Positions 8,631-14,395 of a DNA stretch of 64,000 bases are shown piece after piece. Both the position numbers and the translations under genes were made by a program. Under the pieces are notes generated by a model. That model worked only from the letters and a program-made list of their open reading frames with translations, did no database searches and was not told the DNA's origin. Origin of the DNA: Fibrobacteria bacterium (GTDB taxonomy: Bacteria; Fibrobacterota; Fibrobacteria; UBA11236); NCBI GenBank assembly GCA_025360005.1, contig JANYDA010000006.1, forward strand, positions 62,001 to 126,000. The letters run 5' to 3'. Position 1 is the stretch's first letter, and every line of letters begins with the position of its first letter.

Positions 8631-8698
8631 TTGAGCCGAAGCAGTGCGGAAAAAGTTTTATGCCGCCCGACGGCAGGGGGACGCCCTCAGGGAGTCTT

Positions 8699-11374
8699 AT
8701 GATCCAACGCTACCTCACCAACCTCGGCATGCAGGGCGATTTCGTCGACTCCTTGCGAGAATGTTATAACCGGCGGGAGCCCGGCGATCGCATCGCCTCC
8801 ATCAAGGCCGTAATGGCCCGCCATCGCGAGCGCATCCGCGCCATCAACCGCAGCGGCGCCTCGGGGACAGATACCGTCCGCTTCATCAGCGAGATGGTGG
8901 ACACCTTGCTGCGCGTAATGTGGGATCACGTGGAGATGACCGTACCCAATGAGGCGAATCTGGTGGCCGTGGTGGCGGTGGGCGGTTATGGCCGTTTGGA
9001 GCTTTGCCCGCAATCGGACATCGATCTGCTCATCCTCACCACGGAGAAGCCCACCAAGTACGAGAAGGAACAGGCCGAGACCATCGTGCGCAACCTGTGG
9101 GACTACGGTTTCATCCTGGGCCACTCCGTCCGCAGCCTATCCCAATGCGAGGAGGCCTCCACCAAGGATCCGGAAACCTGGACTTCCTTCCTCAACGAGC
9201 GCTTCGTGGCCGGCGACCACGATCTGTACCGCAAGTTCGTGCGCATGATGTCCAAGCGCTTGTTCCCCTGGCGTACCACGGCGCTCATCGAAGCCAAGAT
9301 CAAGGAACGCGAGCAGCGCAAGAGCCAGGTGGGAGTGCTGGTGCAGATGCTGGAGCCCAACCTCAAGGAAGGATTGGGCTGCCTGCGGGACGTGCATTCC
9401 ATGATGTGGATCGCTAAGGTCAAGCATGACTGCAACAACTTCGGCGATCTGGTGCGGGAAGGCCTCATCACTCCCCAGGAGCTGGAGGATATCCGCGTCG
9501 GCTACGATTTCCTCTTGCAGGTGCGTTGCTGCCTGCATTTCATGACCAACAAGAAGGACGATCACCTGGGGTTCGCCATCCAACCGGAGGTGGCCGCGGA
9601 ACTGGGCTTCAATGATGACGAGAACCAGAAAGCGGTGGAAGTCTTCCTGAAGATCTTCTACCACCACACCAAGACCATCCTGCGCGTCACGGAAGGCGTC
9701 ATCTCCCGTTGGGTCAAGAACAAGGAGAAGACCTCCAAGCCCGCCGTGCTCAAGGATCATCCCCACTTCCACACCGCGGACGGGGCGCTCGATCTCAAAG
9801 CGCGCGTGGGCAACCCCTTCCTGGATAATGTCGGCCTGATGTTGGAGTATTTTGAGATCTCCAACCGACGCGAGCTGGGGCATTCCCATCATGCCATCCT
9901 GCGCATCAAGCAAGCCGTCAGCATCCTATCCACCAACCAGGACATCGATCTCAAATCCCATCTGCCGGAATTCCTGCGCCTGTGCCAGAGCAAGGAACGG
10001 GTGGGGCGCATGCTCCGCACCATGAATGACGTGCGCCTCATCGGCCTGCTCATGCCGGACTTCAACTACATCTATTGCCACAGCCAGCACGACATCTACC
10101 ATATCTATACCACGGATGAGCACACCATCACCGTGGTCCGCCAGCTGGCCTACCTCTCCAAGCAGACCGATAAGGATCTGGAATCGCTGCAAAGCGCGCT
10201 GGCCCAGGTCAGCGACATGGAACTGCTCATCCTGGCCTGTTTCTACCATGACATCGGCAAGGGGGTAGGGCCCCAGCACAGCGTCAGCGGCGCCCGGATG
10301 GTCTTCGAGTACATGCAGAAGATGGGGATGTCCCCTTCCCGTTGCAAAGAGGCCTCCAACCTGGTCCTCTACCACCTGTTGATGAACGAAATCATCCAAC
10401 GGCGCGATTTGGACGATCCCAAGACCATAAGGGACTTCATAACGAAAGTGGAAACCCCCGCTACCCTCCACAAGCTCTATGTATTGACCTTCTGCGATGT
10501 CTCTTCGGTGCATCCGGATGCCTGGTCCAGCTGGAAAGCCTCCCTTCTGCGCCGCCTCTATGAGCTGGCCCTGACGGAAATGCAAAGCCCCTTCCAAGCG
10601 GTGTTGGAATCCCGCAGCCTGGAAGACCAGCTCATCGAAAACGTCTCCAAGCGCGTCTCGGAGGCGGAAGTACGCCGCCATCTGGAGATGCTGCCCCGCC
10701 AATACGCCTCCTCTACCACTGCGGAGGATATCGTTACGCACATCAACCTGCTGGCCAACCTGGACGTCCAGAAGTTCAATGCCCGCATCCTGGAGCGCCA
10801 AACCCATTGGGAGGTCACCGTGGTCGCCAATGACGATGATGCGCTCCTTTGCGCCATCGCGGGCACCATGGCCCATTTGGAGCTTTCCATCCTGAGCGCG
10901 CGTATCTTCACGCGCGTGGACGGCAAAGCCATCGATAAGTTCTGGGTATCCGTGCCCGAAGGCGGCCAACAGGGCAGCTCCGGGTTCGAGCAGCGCCTGA
11001 TCAAGGAGCTGGGGAAGAATTTCCAACTCTCCACGCAGGAGCTGCGCGAACTGCAATCGCGTATCAAGCCCAAGCCCGCCTTCGGCAGGGTGCGGGACAT
11101 ACCGATGAAGCCGGCAGTCAGCTTTTCCAACGCCATCTCGGACAGCTTCAGCACCATCGATCTCACTTGCAACGACCGGATCGGTCTGCTTTTCCAGGTG
11201 ACCAAGGTCTTCAGCGATCTGAAATTGGATGTGCACGGCGCGATACTCACCACCGAGGCCGACAAGGCGATGGACGCTTTTTATATCACCGATGGGTCCA
11301 ACAAGAAGATCGAAAACCCGGAACTCGTTGATCTCATTGTGACTACGTTGATCAAAGAGCTGGGCGACACCTGA
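8699..11374 (+). CDS. glnD: GlnD-type [protein-PII] uridylyltransferase / uridylyl-removing enzyme
   Basis: GlnD modifies the PII nitrogen-signalling protein by adding UMP when nitrogen is short and removing it when glutamine is plentiful. The 891 residues show the full domain order: nucleotidyltransferase with GGYGR (from residue 95) and SDIDLLIL (from 106, metal-binding Asp107 and Asp109), the linker EPNLKEGLGCLRDVH, an HD phosphohydrolase with YHDIGKG (His517-Asp518), and two ACT domains starting near residues 703 and 819. Length matches the family (about 850-950). ATG 8699 is preferred because AGGGAG lies 4 nt upstream; ATG 8660 is in frame but has a poor site. No glnB/glnK lies nearby, so a PII-like substrate other than classical GlnB cannot be excluded. 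Confidence 0.88.
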   Translation: MIQRYLTNLGMQGDFVDSLRECYNRREPGDRIASIKAVMARHRERIRAINRSGASGTDTVRFISEMVDTLLRVMWDHVEMTVPNEANLVAVVAVGGYGRLELCPQSDIDLLILTTEKPTKYEKEQAETIVRNLWDYGFILGHSVRSLSQCEEASTKDPETWTSFLNERFVAGDHDLYRKFVRMMSKRLFPWRTTALIEAKIKEREQRKSQVGVLVQMLEPNLKEGLGCLRDVHSMMWIAKVKHDCNNFGDLVREGLITPQELEDIRVGYDFLLQVRCCLHFMTNKKDDHLGFAIQPEVAAELGFNDDENQKAVEVFLKIFYHHTKTILRVTEGVISRWVKNKEKTSKPAVLKDHPHFHTADGALDLKARVGNPFLDNVGLMLEYFEISNRRELGHSHHAILRIKQAVSILSTNQDIDLKSHLPEFLRLCQSKERVGRMLRTMNDVRLIGLLMPDFNYIYCHSQHDIYHIYTTDEHTITVVRQLAYLSKQTDKDLESLQSALAQVSDMELLILACFYHDIGKGVGPQHSVSGARMVFEYMQKMGMSPSRCKEASNLVLYHLLMNEIIQRRDLDDPKTIRDFITKVETPATLHKLYVLTFCDVSSVHPDAWSSWKASLLRRLYELALTEMQSPFQAVLESRSLEDQLIENVSKRVSEAEVRRHLEMLPRQYASSTTAEDIVTHINLLANLDVQKFNARILERQTHWEVTVVANDDDALLCAIAGTMAHLELSILSARIFTRVDGKAIDKFWVSVPEGGQQGSSGFEQRLIKELGKNFQLSTQELRELQSRIKPKPAFGRVRDIPMKPAVSFSNAISDSFSTIDLTCNDRIGLLFQVTKVFSDLKLDVHGAILTTEADKAMDAFYITDGSNKKIENPELVDLIVTTLIKELGDT

Positions 11375-11426: not shown

Positions 11427-11445
11427 CATTTCGGAAAAGAATTGC

Positions 11446-11474
11446 TTGACTAATCAAGTCAACAACTTTATCAT
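11446..11474 (+). promoter_or_regulatory. Near-consensus sigma-70-type promoter with overlapping palindrome
   Basis: TTGACT (11446-11451) and TATCAT (11469-11474) are separated by exactly 17 nt, five of six matches to each consensus box. Transcription would start near 11481. The -35 box is the left arm of an inverted repeat, TTGACT-AATCA-AGTCAA (11446-11462), which could be an operator. This is the clearest promoter in the window and drives the unit encoding the 28-residue Lys/Ala protein. Confidence 0.72.
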
Positions 11475-11494
11475 TTAGTTATCAGTCGAGCAGA

Positions 11495-11638
11495 TGCAGG
11501 ATAAAATTGATTAGCAAGCAAACGAATCAACAACAACGGCAGAGCAAGCAGAACGCGAAGCTCAGCGAAACCCGGGGTCTCTCAAAATCCCGGATCGCAT
11601 CCCGGCCAATAACCACGGCCTCGAAGCTGTATCCTGCA
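11495..11638 (+). promoter_or_regulatory. Structured 5' leader or small RNA closed by a 9-bp helix
   Basis: TGCAGGATA (11495-11503) is perfectly complementary to TATCCTGCA (11630-11638), enclosing 126 nt. Inside are further short helices: TTGATT/AATCAA near 11507-11530, CCGGG/CCCGG near 11572-11594 and GGCC/GGCC near 11604-11620. The element sits between the promoter and the ribosome binding site of the micro-protein gene, so it would form most of a leader of more than 200 nt. It resembles no riboswitch class I know. The multibranched architecture is read by eye and was not folded. Confidence 0.5.
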
Positions 11639-11696
11639 ACAACCCGTAACGTTTCTCACTAAACAAATTTTTTAAAACTCGAAGGGAGGTGATCGA

Positions 11697-11783
11697 ATGG
11701 CCGCCAAGAAGAAAGCAACGAAGAAAGCCGCTAAGAAAGCGACGAAGAAGGTAGCTAAGAAAGCTTCCAAGAAGAAGAAGTAG
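11697..11783 (+). CDS. 28-residue Lys/Ala-rich basic micro-protein
   Basis: ATG 11697 to TAG 11781 encodes only 28 residues, made of repeating A-K-K / T-K-K units and ending in KKKK; about 16 residues are lysine. Translation signals are excellent: AAGGGAGGTGATC, close to a full anti-Shine-Dalgarno match, ends 3 nt before the ATG. The composition resembles the C-terminal tails of bacterial histone H1-like and AlgP-like proteins, so binding to nucleic acid (DNA or ribosome) is a reasonable guess, not a demonstrated role. It has its own promoter, a structured leader and a strong terminator, so it should be a dedicated, highly expressed transcript. It is too short for most gene callers. Confidence 0.78.
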   Translation: MAAKKKATKKAAKKATKKVAKKASKKKK

Positions 11784-11828
11784 GTCATCTTAGATAGGCA
11801 CCCTTATCAGGTGCGTATCAAAAGATTA

Positions 11829-11861
11829 AGGGAGGTCAGGGTTTCCTTGACCTCCTTTTTT
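11829..11861 (+). terminator. Strong intrinsic terminator of the micro-protein gene
   Basis: GGAGGTCAGG pairs with CCTTGACCTCC (one G-U pair) around a GTTT loop, immediately followed by TTTTTT and preceded by AAG. It lies 45 nt after the stop codon of the 28-residue protein and defines a transcript of about 380 nt from the promoter at 11446-11474. Confidence 0.88.
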
Positions 11862-12243
11862 ATTGCCCGCTCCTCTTCATCCCCACCCGAAATCCCCTTC
11901 ATCAACCCCACGAGATCGGTTTCGATCCTAGTCTGCGCACGCGATCGAAAGTCCGAATGCGGTTCCTAAGTCCTTGAATTATCATGAGAAGCAAAAGCAT
12001 TTTGCGAAACCAGTGCCGCGGGAGGAATCCTTCCTAAAGTATGGGCCGCTTTTCTGATCCAAGCGGACACGGTAGGGAAGGAGCCGGAAGGTTAGCCGGG
12101 AATGAAGGTGAGGGGAATGCTATCCCGGCAGAATTTTCCTAGTTGAAGCCCAGATGCGCGCCTAATAGGCGAGTCGCATACGGCTATGCGGGAAGAGGCA
12201 AGGGGAAGGCAGGTAGGTGGAACCCGGGCATTCCCGGCCGCCG
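11862..12243. other. 382-bp gene-free gap downstream of argS
   Basis: No convincing coding frame or known RNA gene was found. Two perfect small hairpins sit side by side: CGCCT-AAT-AGGCG (12159-12171) and CGCATA-CGGC-TATGCG (12175-12190). A third, CCGGG-CATT-CCCGG, lies near 12223-12236, just past the argS stop on the minus strand, but it lacks a T-tract. Purine-rich runs fill 12070-12120. The stretch could be the 3' untranslated region of argS or an unrecognised RNA. Confidence 0.4.
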
Positions 12244-13989
12244 CTACATCTCTTCGATGGGGGGGACTCCGATCAGATCGAGAGTCTGACCCAGGGCTAT
12301 GCGCGCGCAGTCGATAAGGAAGAGGCGCTCTTTCTCTTCGGCGCTCCCCAATACGCGGCAGTTATGGATAAAGCTATGCGCGCCTTCCGCGATCTCGAGC
12401 GCGTATTGCGCCATGGGGCAAGGATCGTTCGCTTCCAAAGCGGTGCCGACTTTATCGGGGAAGAGGCTTAATGCGCGGATCAAGGCCTGGGCCTGGGGCT
12501 CGGGCAATTTGGCGAATTCGATCCCCGCCGTCCCGGCCTGCGCCGGACGATCCGGTCCCGGACGCCCGGCTTTCTCCGCGCTCTTGCGCAGGATGCTGCA
12601 CAGCCTCACATGGGCGTTCTGGACGTAAGGGCCGGAGTCGCCCTCGAAACTCAAGGCCTTGTCCCATTCAAAGCGGATATCGTTGAGGCGGCGGTTCTTC
12701 AATTCGCTGAAGACGAGCGCGCCCACGCCTATCTGCATGGCCAAGCCTTCTTTACCGGCGGCTTCGGGATTCTTTTCCCGGATGATCCCCAGGATTTTCT
12801 CGCGCGCGCCCTCGATCACGTCCTTTAGGAGGCTGGACTGGCCGCTGCGGGTCTTGCCTTTTTCCCAGCCGCCATCTTCGCTCTTGATCAGCACCAATCC
12901 GAACGGCACATGCTCCACTTGCTTATGCCAGGCGAAGCCCGCCAATTCCAGGACCTTGTTCAATTGCTGGAAGTGCAGGCTCTGGCCGTTGTCCACCACG
13001 TACAGGCATTTGTCGAACCCGTAGGTTTCCTTGCGGTAGATGGCGGCGGCGATGTCGCGCGTTATGTACAGGGTGGCGCCGTCGGTTTTGCGCAGCATCA
13101 CCGGGGGCAGATTATGCTGGGCGAGGTCCACTATCTCGGCTCCCTGGCTCGCCTTCACCAGGTCCTTGCCGGCCAGCAGATCCATGGTCTTGGGCATATG
13201 ATCCAGGAAGTAAGCCTCGCCGATGTAGCTGTCGAACTCCACGTCCAGGAAGGCGTAAATGCGTTGCAGCTCCCGCAAGGTGATATCCTTGAAGGCCTGC
13301 CATAAGCCGCGATAGCGCGCATCGCCGGATTCCAACCGCTGGAACGCTTCCCGTGCCTGGTCCTCCAGGGAGGGGTCGTCTTTGGCGGCGTTCGCGAACG
13401 TCGTGTACAAGGCGTTCAGCCGCTCGATGGTCATGGCCGCCAAATCCGATTCCCGCAAACCCTCGCGCAGGAACATGACGATAAGCTTGCCGTACGAGGT
13501 GCCCCAATCGCCCAGGTGGTTGATGCGCACCACCTTGTATCCGGCGCGCGCATAAAGCTTGCCCAGCGAGTTCCCGATCATGGTGCCGCGCAGATGGTGG
13601 AAGGCCAGCTCCTTGCCCATGTTGGGGGACGAGTAGTCCAGTACCACGGTTTTGCCCTGGCCGCGCGTGGTGGATCCGTAGGCGGCGCCTTGCTCCGCGA
13701 TGGCACCCAAGGTGCGGCGCGCGAAATCGGCCGGGTCGATGAAGAAATTCAGGTAGCCGTTGAGCGGCTCAACCTTGACGATGGAGGCGTTGGTGGCGAT
13801 CAGCCCGGCGAGTTCCGCCGCGATGGCGGGCGGAGCCTTGCGGAGCTTCTTGGCGAGCGGAAAGCAGGGGAAGGCGAAGTCCCCATGCCCGATATGCTGG
13901 GGAAGGGTGATGGCCTGGACGATTTCCTGCGTGGAAAGGCCGGTGTGGGGAGCCAGCAGCTCCGCGATTTCGTCCTTATAAGTCCTCAT
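12244..13989 (-). CDS. argS: Arginyl-tRNA synthetase
   Basis: ArgS charges tRNA-Arg with arginine in the cytoplasm using ATP. The 581-residue protein has the ArgRS-specific N-terminal domain (HIGHGDFAFPCFPLAKKLRK), the class I signature DYSSPNMGKELAFHHLRG with a HxxH-like HIGH motif, the INHLGDWGTSYGKL segment, and the C-terminal DALR anticodon-binding region (VQNAHVRLCSILRK onward). ATG 13989 is used; a TTG at 14001 is also in frame and has AGGAAG about 9 nt upstream, so the true start could be four codons earlier. Either way the start overlaps the end of rsfS, which implies translational coupling. Confidence 0.95.
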   Translation of the reverse strand: MRTYKDEIAELLAPHTGLSTQEIVQAITLPQHIGHGDFAFPCFPLAKKLRKAPPAIAAELAGLIATNASIVKVEPLNGYLNFFIDPADFARRTLGAIAEQGAAYGSTTRGQGKTVVLDYSSPNMGKELAFHHLRGTMIGNSLGKLYARAGYKVVRINHLGDWGTSYGKLIVMFLREGLRESDLAAMTIERLNALYTTFANAAKDDPSLEDQAREAFQRLESGDARYRGLWQAFKDITLRELQRIYAFLDVEFDSYIGEAYFLDHMPKTMDLLAGKDLVKASQGAEIVDLAQHNLPPVMLRKTDGATLYITRDIAAAIYRKETYGFDKCLYVVDNGQSLHFQQLNKVLELAGFAWHKQVEHVPFGLVLIKSEDGGWEKGKTRSGQSSLLKDVIEGAREKILGIIREKNPEAAGKEGLAMQIGVGALVFSELKNRRLNDIRFEWDKALSFEGDSGPYVQNAHVRLCSILRKSAEKAGRPGPDRPAQAGTAGIEFAKLPEPQAQALIRALSLFPDKVGTALEANDPCPMAQYALEIAEGAHSFIHNCRVLGSAEEKERLFLIDCARIALGQTLDLIGVPPIEEM

Positions 13990-14395
13990 CCTCGTCGGCA
14001 ACCGTTTCTTCTTCCTGGGTGGCGTAGTCTTCCGGCTTCAGGCGCGTGGACTTGGCGTCCGCCCAGAGGCGTTCCAGGGAATAATAGCTCCTGGTGTCCT
14101 TTTCGAAAAGATGGATGATGAGATCGCCGTAGTCCAGCACCGCCCAGCGCACGCCGGTATGGTATTCGGATCGCAGCGCCTTGATGCCTTCGCGGCTCAG
14201 GGCGCGATAGGCATGGTGCAGCACGCCGCGCATCTGCGTCTCGTTCTGGCAGGTGCAGATGAGGTAGAAATCCGTCAGGGAGCTCAGGCCACGCAGATCC
14301 AGCAGCACGGCATCCTCCACCTTCTTGGAAAAGAGGATCCCCGCCGCCTTCTCGGCCAATGCCTGCGCTTCGACTACTGTTTTGGTCTTTGCCAT
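13976..14395 (-). CDS. rsfS: Ribosome silencing factor RsfS (YbeB/Iojap family)
   Basis: RsfS binds ribosomal protein L14 of the 50S subunit and blocks joining with the 30S subunit when nutrients are short. The 139-residue sequence carries the family signature: DAVLLDLRGLSSLTDFYLIC, the SEYHTGVRWAVLDYGDLIIH block, and F-E-K-x-x-R-x-Y-Y-x-L-E-R-L-W. The C-terminal 20 residues are acidic (EEETVADEDEDL), beyond the usual family core. It overlaps argS downstream by 14 nt and the LytR_C gene upstream by 22 nt, so the three genes form a tight operon. Confidence 0.95.
   Translation of the reverse strand: MAKTKTVVEAQALAEKAAGILFSKKVEDAVLLDLRGLSSLTDFYLICTCQNETQMRGVLHHAYRALSREGIKALRSEYHTGVRWAVLDYGDLIIHLFEKDTRSYYSLERLWADAKSTRLKPEDYATQEEETVADEDEDL

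Follow-up and report, generated by a model that had tools for sequence, protein, structure and literature searches.

A conserved micro-gene for a 28-residue lysine/alanine protein in one family of Fibrobacteria and similar short genes in other phyla

Within a 64,000-nt stretch of DNA from a Fibrobacteria bacterium (GCA_025360005.1, contig JANYDA010000006.1, positions 62,001-126,000, forward strand; GTDB lineage Bacteria; Fibrobacterota; Fibrobacteria; UBA11236), hereafter the window, we examined a gene of only 28 codons that is well supported by sequence comparison. It is probably a highly translated monocistronic gene for a very small and very basic protein, acting as a flexible polycation. 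A 420-bp stretch holds the promoter, a leader of about 216 nt, the Shine-Dalgarno (SD) sequence, the 28-codon ORF and a terminator, each where the original prediction had placed it. That description of the unit stood, but it had overlooked a palindrome in the promoter, the structure of the leader and the similar genes found elsewhere. The features, in window coordinates, are the following.

8660..11374, plus strand: upstream gene glnD (PII uridylyltransferase; Pfam PF08335, HD and ACT)
11446..11474, plus strand: sigma70-type promoter TTGACT-N17-TATCAT
11446..11462, no strand assigned: palindrome TTGACT-AATCA-AGTCAA (TTGAC-N7-GTCAA), candidate operator, arms conserved in relatives
11493..11639, plus strand: structured 5' leader RNA closed by helix P1, from fold z, consensus fold and covariation
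11496-11503 with 11630-11637, plus strand: helix P1 of the leader, GCAGGATA pairing with TATCCTGC
11571..11593, plus strand: leader hairpin P2, variable in sequence, with pairing kept in most genomes and compensatory pairs
11597..11627, plus strand: leader hairpin P3, GGCC-AATAACCAC-GGCC, with a conserved A-rich loop
11682..11694, plus strand: extended SD AAGGGAGGTGATC, complementary to the full 16S 3' end
11697..11783, plus strand: 28-codon ORF MAAKKKATKKAAKKATKKVAKKASKKKK
11828..11862, plus strand: intrinsic terminator, 14-bp stem (11828-11858) and T tail
12244..14001, minus strand: downstream convergent gene argS (arginyl-tRNA synthetase; Pfam PF00750, PF05746 and PF03485)

The source genome was compared with five relatives of the same genus, and identity among the six follows the elements as a footprint. 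Mean pairwise identity is 95% in the promoter, 97% in the 5' strand of P1, 100% in the SD, 90% in the ORF and 91% in the terminator, and is lower between and beyond them (variable part of the leader 47%, linker 47%, after the stop 46%, downstream 34%). The near-consensus promoter and the strong terminator that had been claimed are both present and conserved. The promoter (-35 TTGACT, 11446-11451; -10 TATCAT, 11469-11474; 17-nt spacer) agrees with the consensus at 10 of 12 positions, a match that is by itself within chance (3 sites found versus 1.7 expected in 4 kb); unlike this bare match, the conservation of the promoter in the genus exceeds chance. Transcription is predicted to start at about 11481, and this gives the leader its length of about 216 nt, in keeping with the more than 200 nt first proposed. 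The palindrome overlaps the -35 box and the spacer, and its arms are kept in 6/6 same-genus and 3/4 sister-genus genomes, one sister-genus genome being without it. It may be an operator. A search of the source genome for a second good copy found none, and for this reason the palindrome was rejected as a regulon box.

The almost perfect anti-SD match was borne out. The SD:anti-SD duplex is predicted at -24.6 kcal/mol, using the textbook 16S 3' end, which may differ from that of the host, whereas -15.8 kcal/mol is the best that any of 30 long ORFs in the window reaches, even when their starts are chosen generously. The comparison covered these 30 ORFs and one pattern search of the whole 4.98-Mb genome, where GGAGGTGAT-N1-9-ATG was listed at 19 places, one site twice, nearly all within long frames; besides the micro-gene, only two resemble plausible gene starts. 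Seven bases separate GGAGG from the ATG, and the SD core is invariant across the genus and the family. The high expression originally suggested for this very small basic protein would agree with such a conserved full-length SD.

Codon comparison of the ORF in the six genomes gave pS of 0.32 and pN of 0.037, a ratio of 0.11, which indicates that the lysine/alanine frame is under purifying selection at the protein level. The internal lysines are unchanged across the genus and substitutions are mainly among Ala, Val and Thr; lysine makes up about half of the residues in a regular A-K-K rhythm. A chance ORF or an AAG microsatellite was ruled out by pN/pS and by the varied codons. Gene callers usually apply a limit of 90 nt, and the micro-gene, at 87 nt including the stop, falls below it.

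The original prediction had looked to the relatives for conservation of the frame and its ribosome binding site, and both are kept: an ORF with GGAGGTGAT is present in all ten genomes of the family, comprising the six of the genus and all four of the sister genus, with the repeat varying in length from 19 to 42 aa. The same pattern of ORF and SD was not found in 91 other Fibrobacteria, where the absence from the order-level neighbour is weak evidence because that genome is 79% complete. When ATGGCNRCNAARAARAAR was searched in 126 genomes of the class without requiring an SD, many starts were recovered; those outside the family whose DNA was read are either ordinary proteins or frames that arise by chance, and their SD is weak or absent. 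Such Fibrobacteria ORFs of other types include ones that begin MA[AT]KKK.

We then scanned the genomes of 84,980 species with GGAGGTGAT-N1-9-ATGGCNNCNAARAARAA, and this gave 53 places, about 47 of which are short Lys/Ala-rich ORFs from roughly 13 phyla, most of 12-36 aa and a few of up to 81. Carriers are found in Fibrobacterota, Eisenbacteria (22 aa, MAAKKKAAKKKATKKKAAKKKK), Patescibacteria, Verrucomicrobia (16 aa), Dadabacteria, Elusimicrobia, Omnitrophota, Planctomycetota, Acidobacteria (Sulfopaludibacter), a Deltaproteobacteria-labelled MAG and Woesearchaeota, with 13-aa forms in Rokubacteria and a Thermoflexus-labelled MAG. Nearly all come from metagenome assemblies, where individual cases may result from misbinning. 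Two contigs labelled Woesearchaeota (L076 and L092), with genes of 13 and 16 aa behind GGAGGTGAT, are either archaeal or misbinned. A terminator-like hairpin usually follows these ORFs, as read from their tails by eye and left unscored; the next gene is mostly convergent, and the neighbours differ between phyla. A phage origin was rejected, the viral scan having given four matches, none of them Lys/Ala-repeat micro-proteins.

Because the scan query itself required the SD, the link between SD and ORF was examined separately with SD-free patterns, which for Eisenbacteria, Patescibacteria and Verrucomicrobia sample about half of the sites by design. Across 47 Eisenbacteria genomes, a strong SD was present on 10/10 sampled Lys/Ala micro-ORFs. 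It was absent from the other MAAKKK starts, most of which are the same conserved Met inside a longer protein that reads as electron-transfer flavoprotein beta. A Verrucomicrobia family yielded five micro-ORFs bearing GGAGGTGAT or GGGGGTGAT. The picture was mixed in 145 unselected Patescibacteria, where K/A-rich starts are few and several are without a strong SD. These sampled sites confirm the link in Eisenbacteria and Verrucomicrobia, and less so in Patescibacteria. In Rokubacteria, L073 (5400-5215, minus strand) carries two tandem 13-codon ORFs for MAAKKKAAKKKKK, adjoining a gene that reads as rpmB from its sequence, without a family search; the two ORFs differ in their codons, and a separate extended SD precedes each. 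In a second Rokubacteria genome (G163), two starts that match lie 112 bases from each other.

All ten Eisenbacteria loci have a sigma54-type site, GG-N10-GC, at about 90-145 nt upstream of the SD; shuffled sequences seldom attain its score in nine of them, and it is weakest in L057. At four of these loci the codirectional upstream gene falls in one cluster of sigma54-activator response regulators, by Pfam for one of them. A sigma54-type promoter suggests another mode of control, so that the product, and not its regulation, would be the common part. This sharing of the product and the tandem copies in Rokubacteria both hint that the peptide matters. The site reads TGGCAC...TGC in L047, L049, L052, L054, L057, L059, L063, L078, L087 and L088. 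At several of these loci the upstream response regulator has GAYTDA or GAFTDA in its loop in place of GAFTGA. Just past the micro-ORF stop and ahead of the terminator stem, a hairpin GGACCTGGCACGTCC is conserved in L047, L049, L052, L054, L057, L059, L063, L087 and L088.

Taken together, these genes could form a cross-phylum family of Lys/Ala micro-proteins, the shortest of 12-13 residues, that would rank with the most strongly translated genes in each host. They would have been overlooked because they are below the length limits of gene callers and destroyed by trypsin; each would be a minimal polycation on the nucleoid, the ribosomes or polyphosphate. We advance this broader reading tentatively. 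The sequences are of low complexity and repeats this simple can evolve on many occasions, so common ancestry across phyla is not demonstrable, and convergence may account for the likeness. If phyla did converge on one design, that too would be informative. If the broader reading is true, these genes encode an overlooked class of bacterial proteins that may be very abundant and that fall short of most annotation limits. They would include near-minimal natural polycations, with the 13-residue products and the tandem duplicates as clean test cases, and would raise the question of how far charge alone organises nucleic acid or polyphosphate in cells.

No stable fold is expected of such a product, and we infer for it a biochemical role as a nucleic-acid-, ribosome- or polyphosphate-binding polycation. 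Its charge would bind, neutralise or bridge polyanions such as DNA, rRNA and ribosomes, mRNA or polyphosphate, and the micro-protein may associate with the nucleoid or the ribosome, as had been suggested. Through the palindrome and the leader, its production would come under the control of transcription and of RNA structure. A known protein family or structure was ruled out: five representatives compared with Pfam and NCBIfam at E 10 gave only chance matches far below the cut-off, a PDB sequence search at E 10 gave none, and literature searches for lysine-rich or AAKKK micro-proteins found nothing relevant. A close analogy is with the Lys/Ala tails of H1-like proteins (Chlamydia Hc1/Hc2, Pseudomonas AlgP), which likewise have Lys/Ala repeats of variable number, and a polyanion-binding polycation would be expected in both. 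The H1-like proteins are much longer: Hc2 has 165-237 aa (PMC2848022), and AlgP carries other sequence besides its 154-aa repeat domain (PMC9239181), whereas the micro-protein is 28 aa of repeat with no further domain. It shares the variable-number repeat with this class but matches no curated profile.

In a narrower form of the polycation reading, the cell would make the micro-protein when starved of nitrogen or energy, and its lysines would partner polyphosphate or DNA condensed in starvation, comparably to AlgP's KPAA tail. The composition resembles H1-type tails, and AlgP associates with polyphosphate granules, as described during nitrogen starvation (PMC9239181). The neighbouring glnD here, and the sigma54-activator response regulator beside the gene in several Eisenbacteria, point the same way, but other phyla have different neighbours, and we regard this narrower form as unlikely.

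The size, the charge and the very strong translation signal would also suit a small basic protein that is part of the ribosome or bound to it, lying in an rRNA pocket and made to match ribosome number. The known proteins of this kind, bTHX, bL37 and eL41, are tiny and basic, of about 25 residues, with fixed mixed sequences. The micro-protein is similar in size and strong basicity, with high expression likewise expected, but is instead a simple repeat of variable length. Its gene adjoins argS here; in other phyla the neighbour reads, by its sequence alone, as rpmB, glycyl-tRNA synthetase or Der. Neither the PDB nor Pfam gave a known chain that resembles it. The repeat number varies freely (mostly 12-62 aa), unlike that of a protein fitted to a site, the gene did not turn up in related families within the class, and the sigma54-type promoter of Eisenbacteria would be unusual for a ribosomal protein. 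A ribosomal protein is thus rather improbable, and the flexible polycation remains our preferred reading.

The leader had been expected merely to vary between relatives; instead it carries conserved, covarying helices. Its fold z is -4.2 in the source genome and -1.8 to -4.5 in the five others. All six fold alike, with P1 (GCAGGAU/AUCCUGC), a variable P2 and P3 with the loop AAUAAYCAY, and the RNAalifold consensus gives the same structure. In the alignment 91.3% of cells pair versus 85.3 in shuffles (0/500 as high) and 26-42% in slid versions; the covariation score is 0.257 versus 0.135 in shuffles (0/500 as high), and compensatory changes occur at four pairs. The structure was derived from the same six sequences on which it was tested, so this is moderate evidence that the helices are conserved and covary in the genus. 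A model of the whole leader finds one copy in each genus genome, no match in the sister genus and nothing convincing in other Fibrobacteria, whereas all four sister-genus leaders do have the P3 loop, in the form CCAATRAAYAC. A known RNA family was ruled out, since at the Rfam gathering score the leader has no match, the sole passing match in the window being a tRNA elsewhere. At a loose threshold Rfam gave only L20_leader, at 26 of 58.7 bits and off the leader; this match spans 11769-11868, the end of the ORF and the terminator, and is probably due to chance. In the source genome about 30 nt are inserted in the leader (window 11540-11570), and the five relatives lack them.

The conserved leader is a candidate new regulatory RNA, and its covarying helices in the genus, together with the hairpin loop conserved across the family, could suggest that it is the active part, with the ORF a minor by-product. 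The protein-level selection on the ORF argues against this, and the ORF and SD persist in the sister genus, which the leader model misses, and are shared by the genes of other phyla without obvious similarity of leader. We therefore consider it quite improbable that the RNA is the active part.

Homologues of glnD and of the convergent argS lie in the same places in relatives. Leader peptides of trp/his-type attenuators are short ORFs dominated by one residue and followed by a terminator, and the micro-gene shares these features, with a structured leader before it. Lysine-sensing attenuation, in which the speed of translation would set terminator formation and so control a downstream gene, is nevertheless ruled out as hardly credible, since argS is convergent and leaves no codirectional gene past the terminator to control; the next gene is convergent at most loci in other phyla, the structured RNA precedes the ORF rather than follows it, the ORF is duplicated in tandem in Rokubacteria, and a leader peptide needs no strong SD, while this frame has an exceptional one and is under purifying selection.

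Long proteins rich in Lys, Ala and Pro also occur in two other Fibrobacteria (L118 and L152); these H1-like proteins, of 358 and 377 aa, start with MATKKK without a strong SD.
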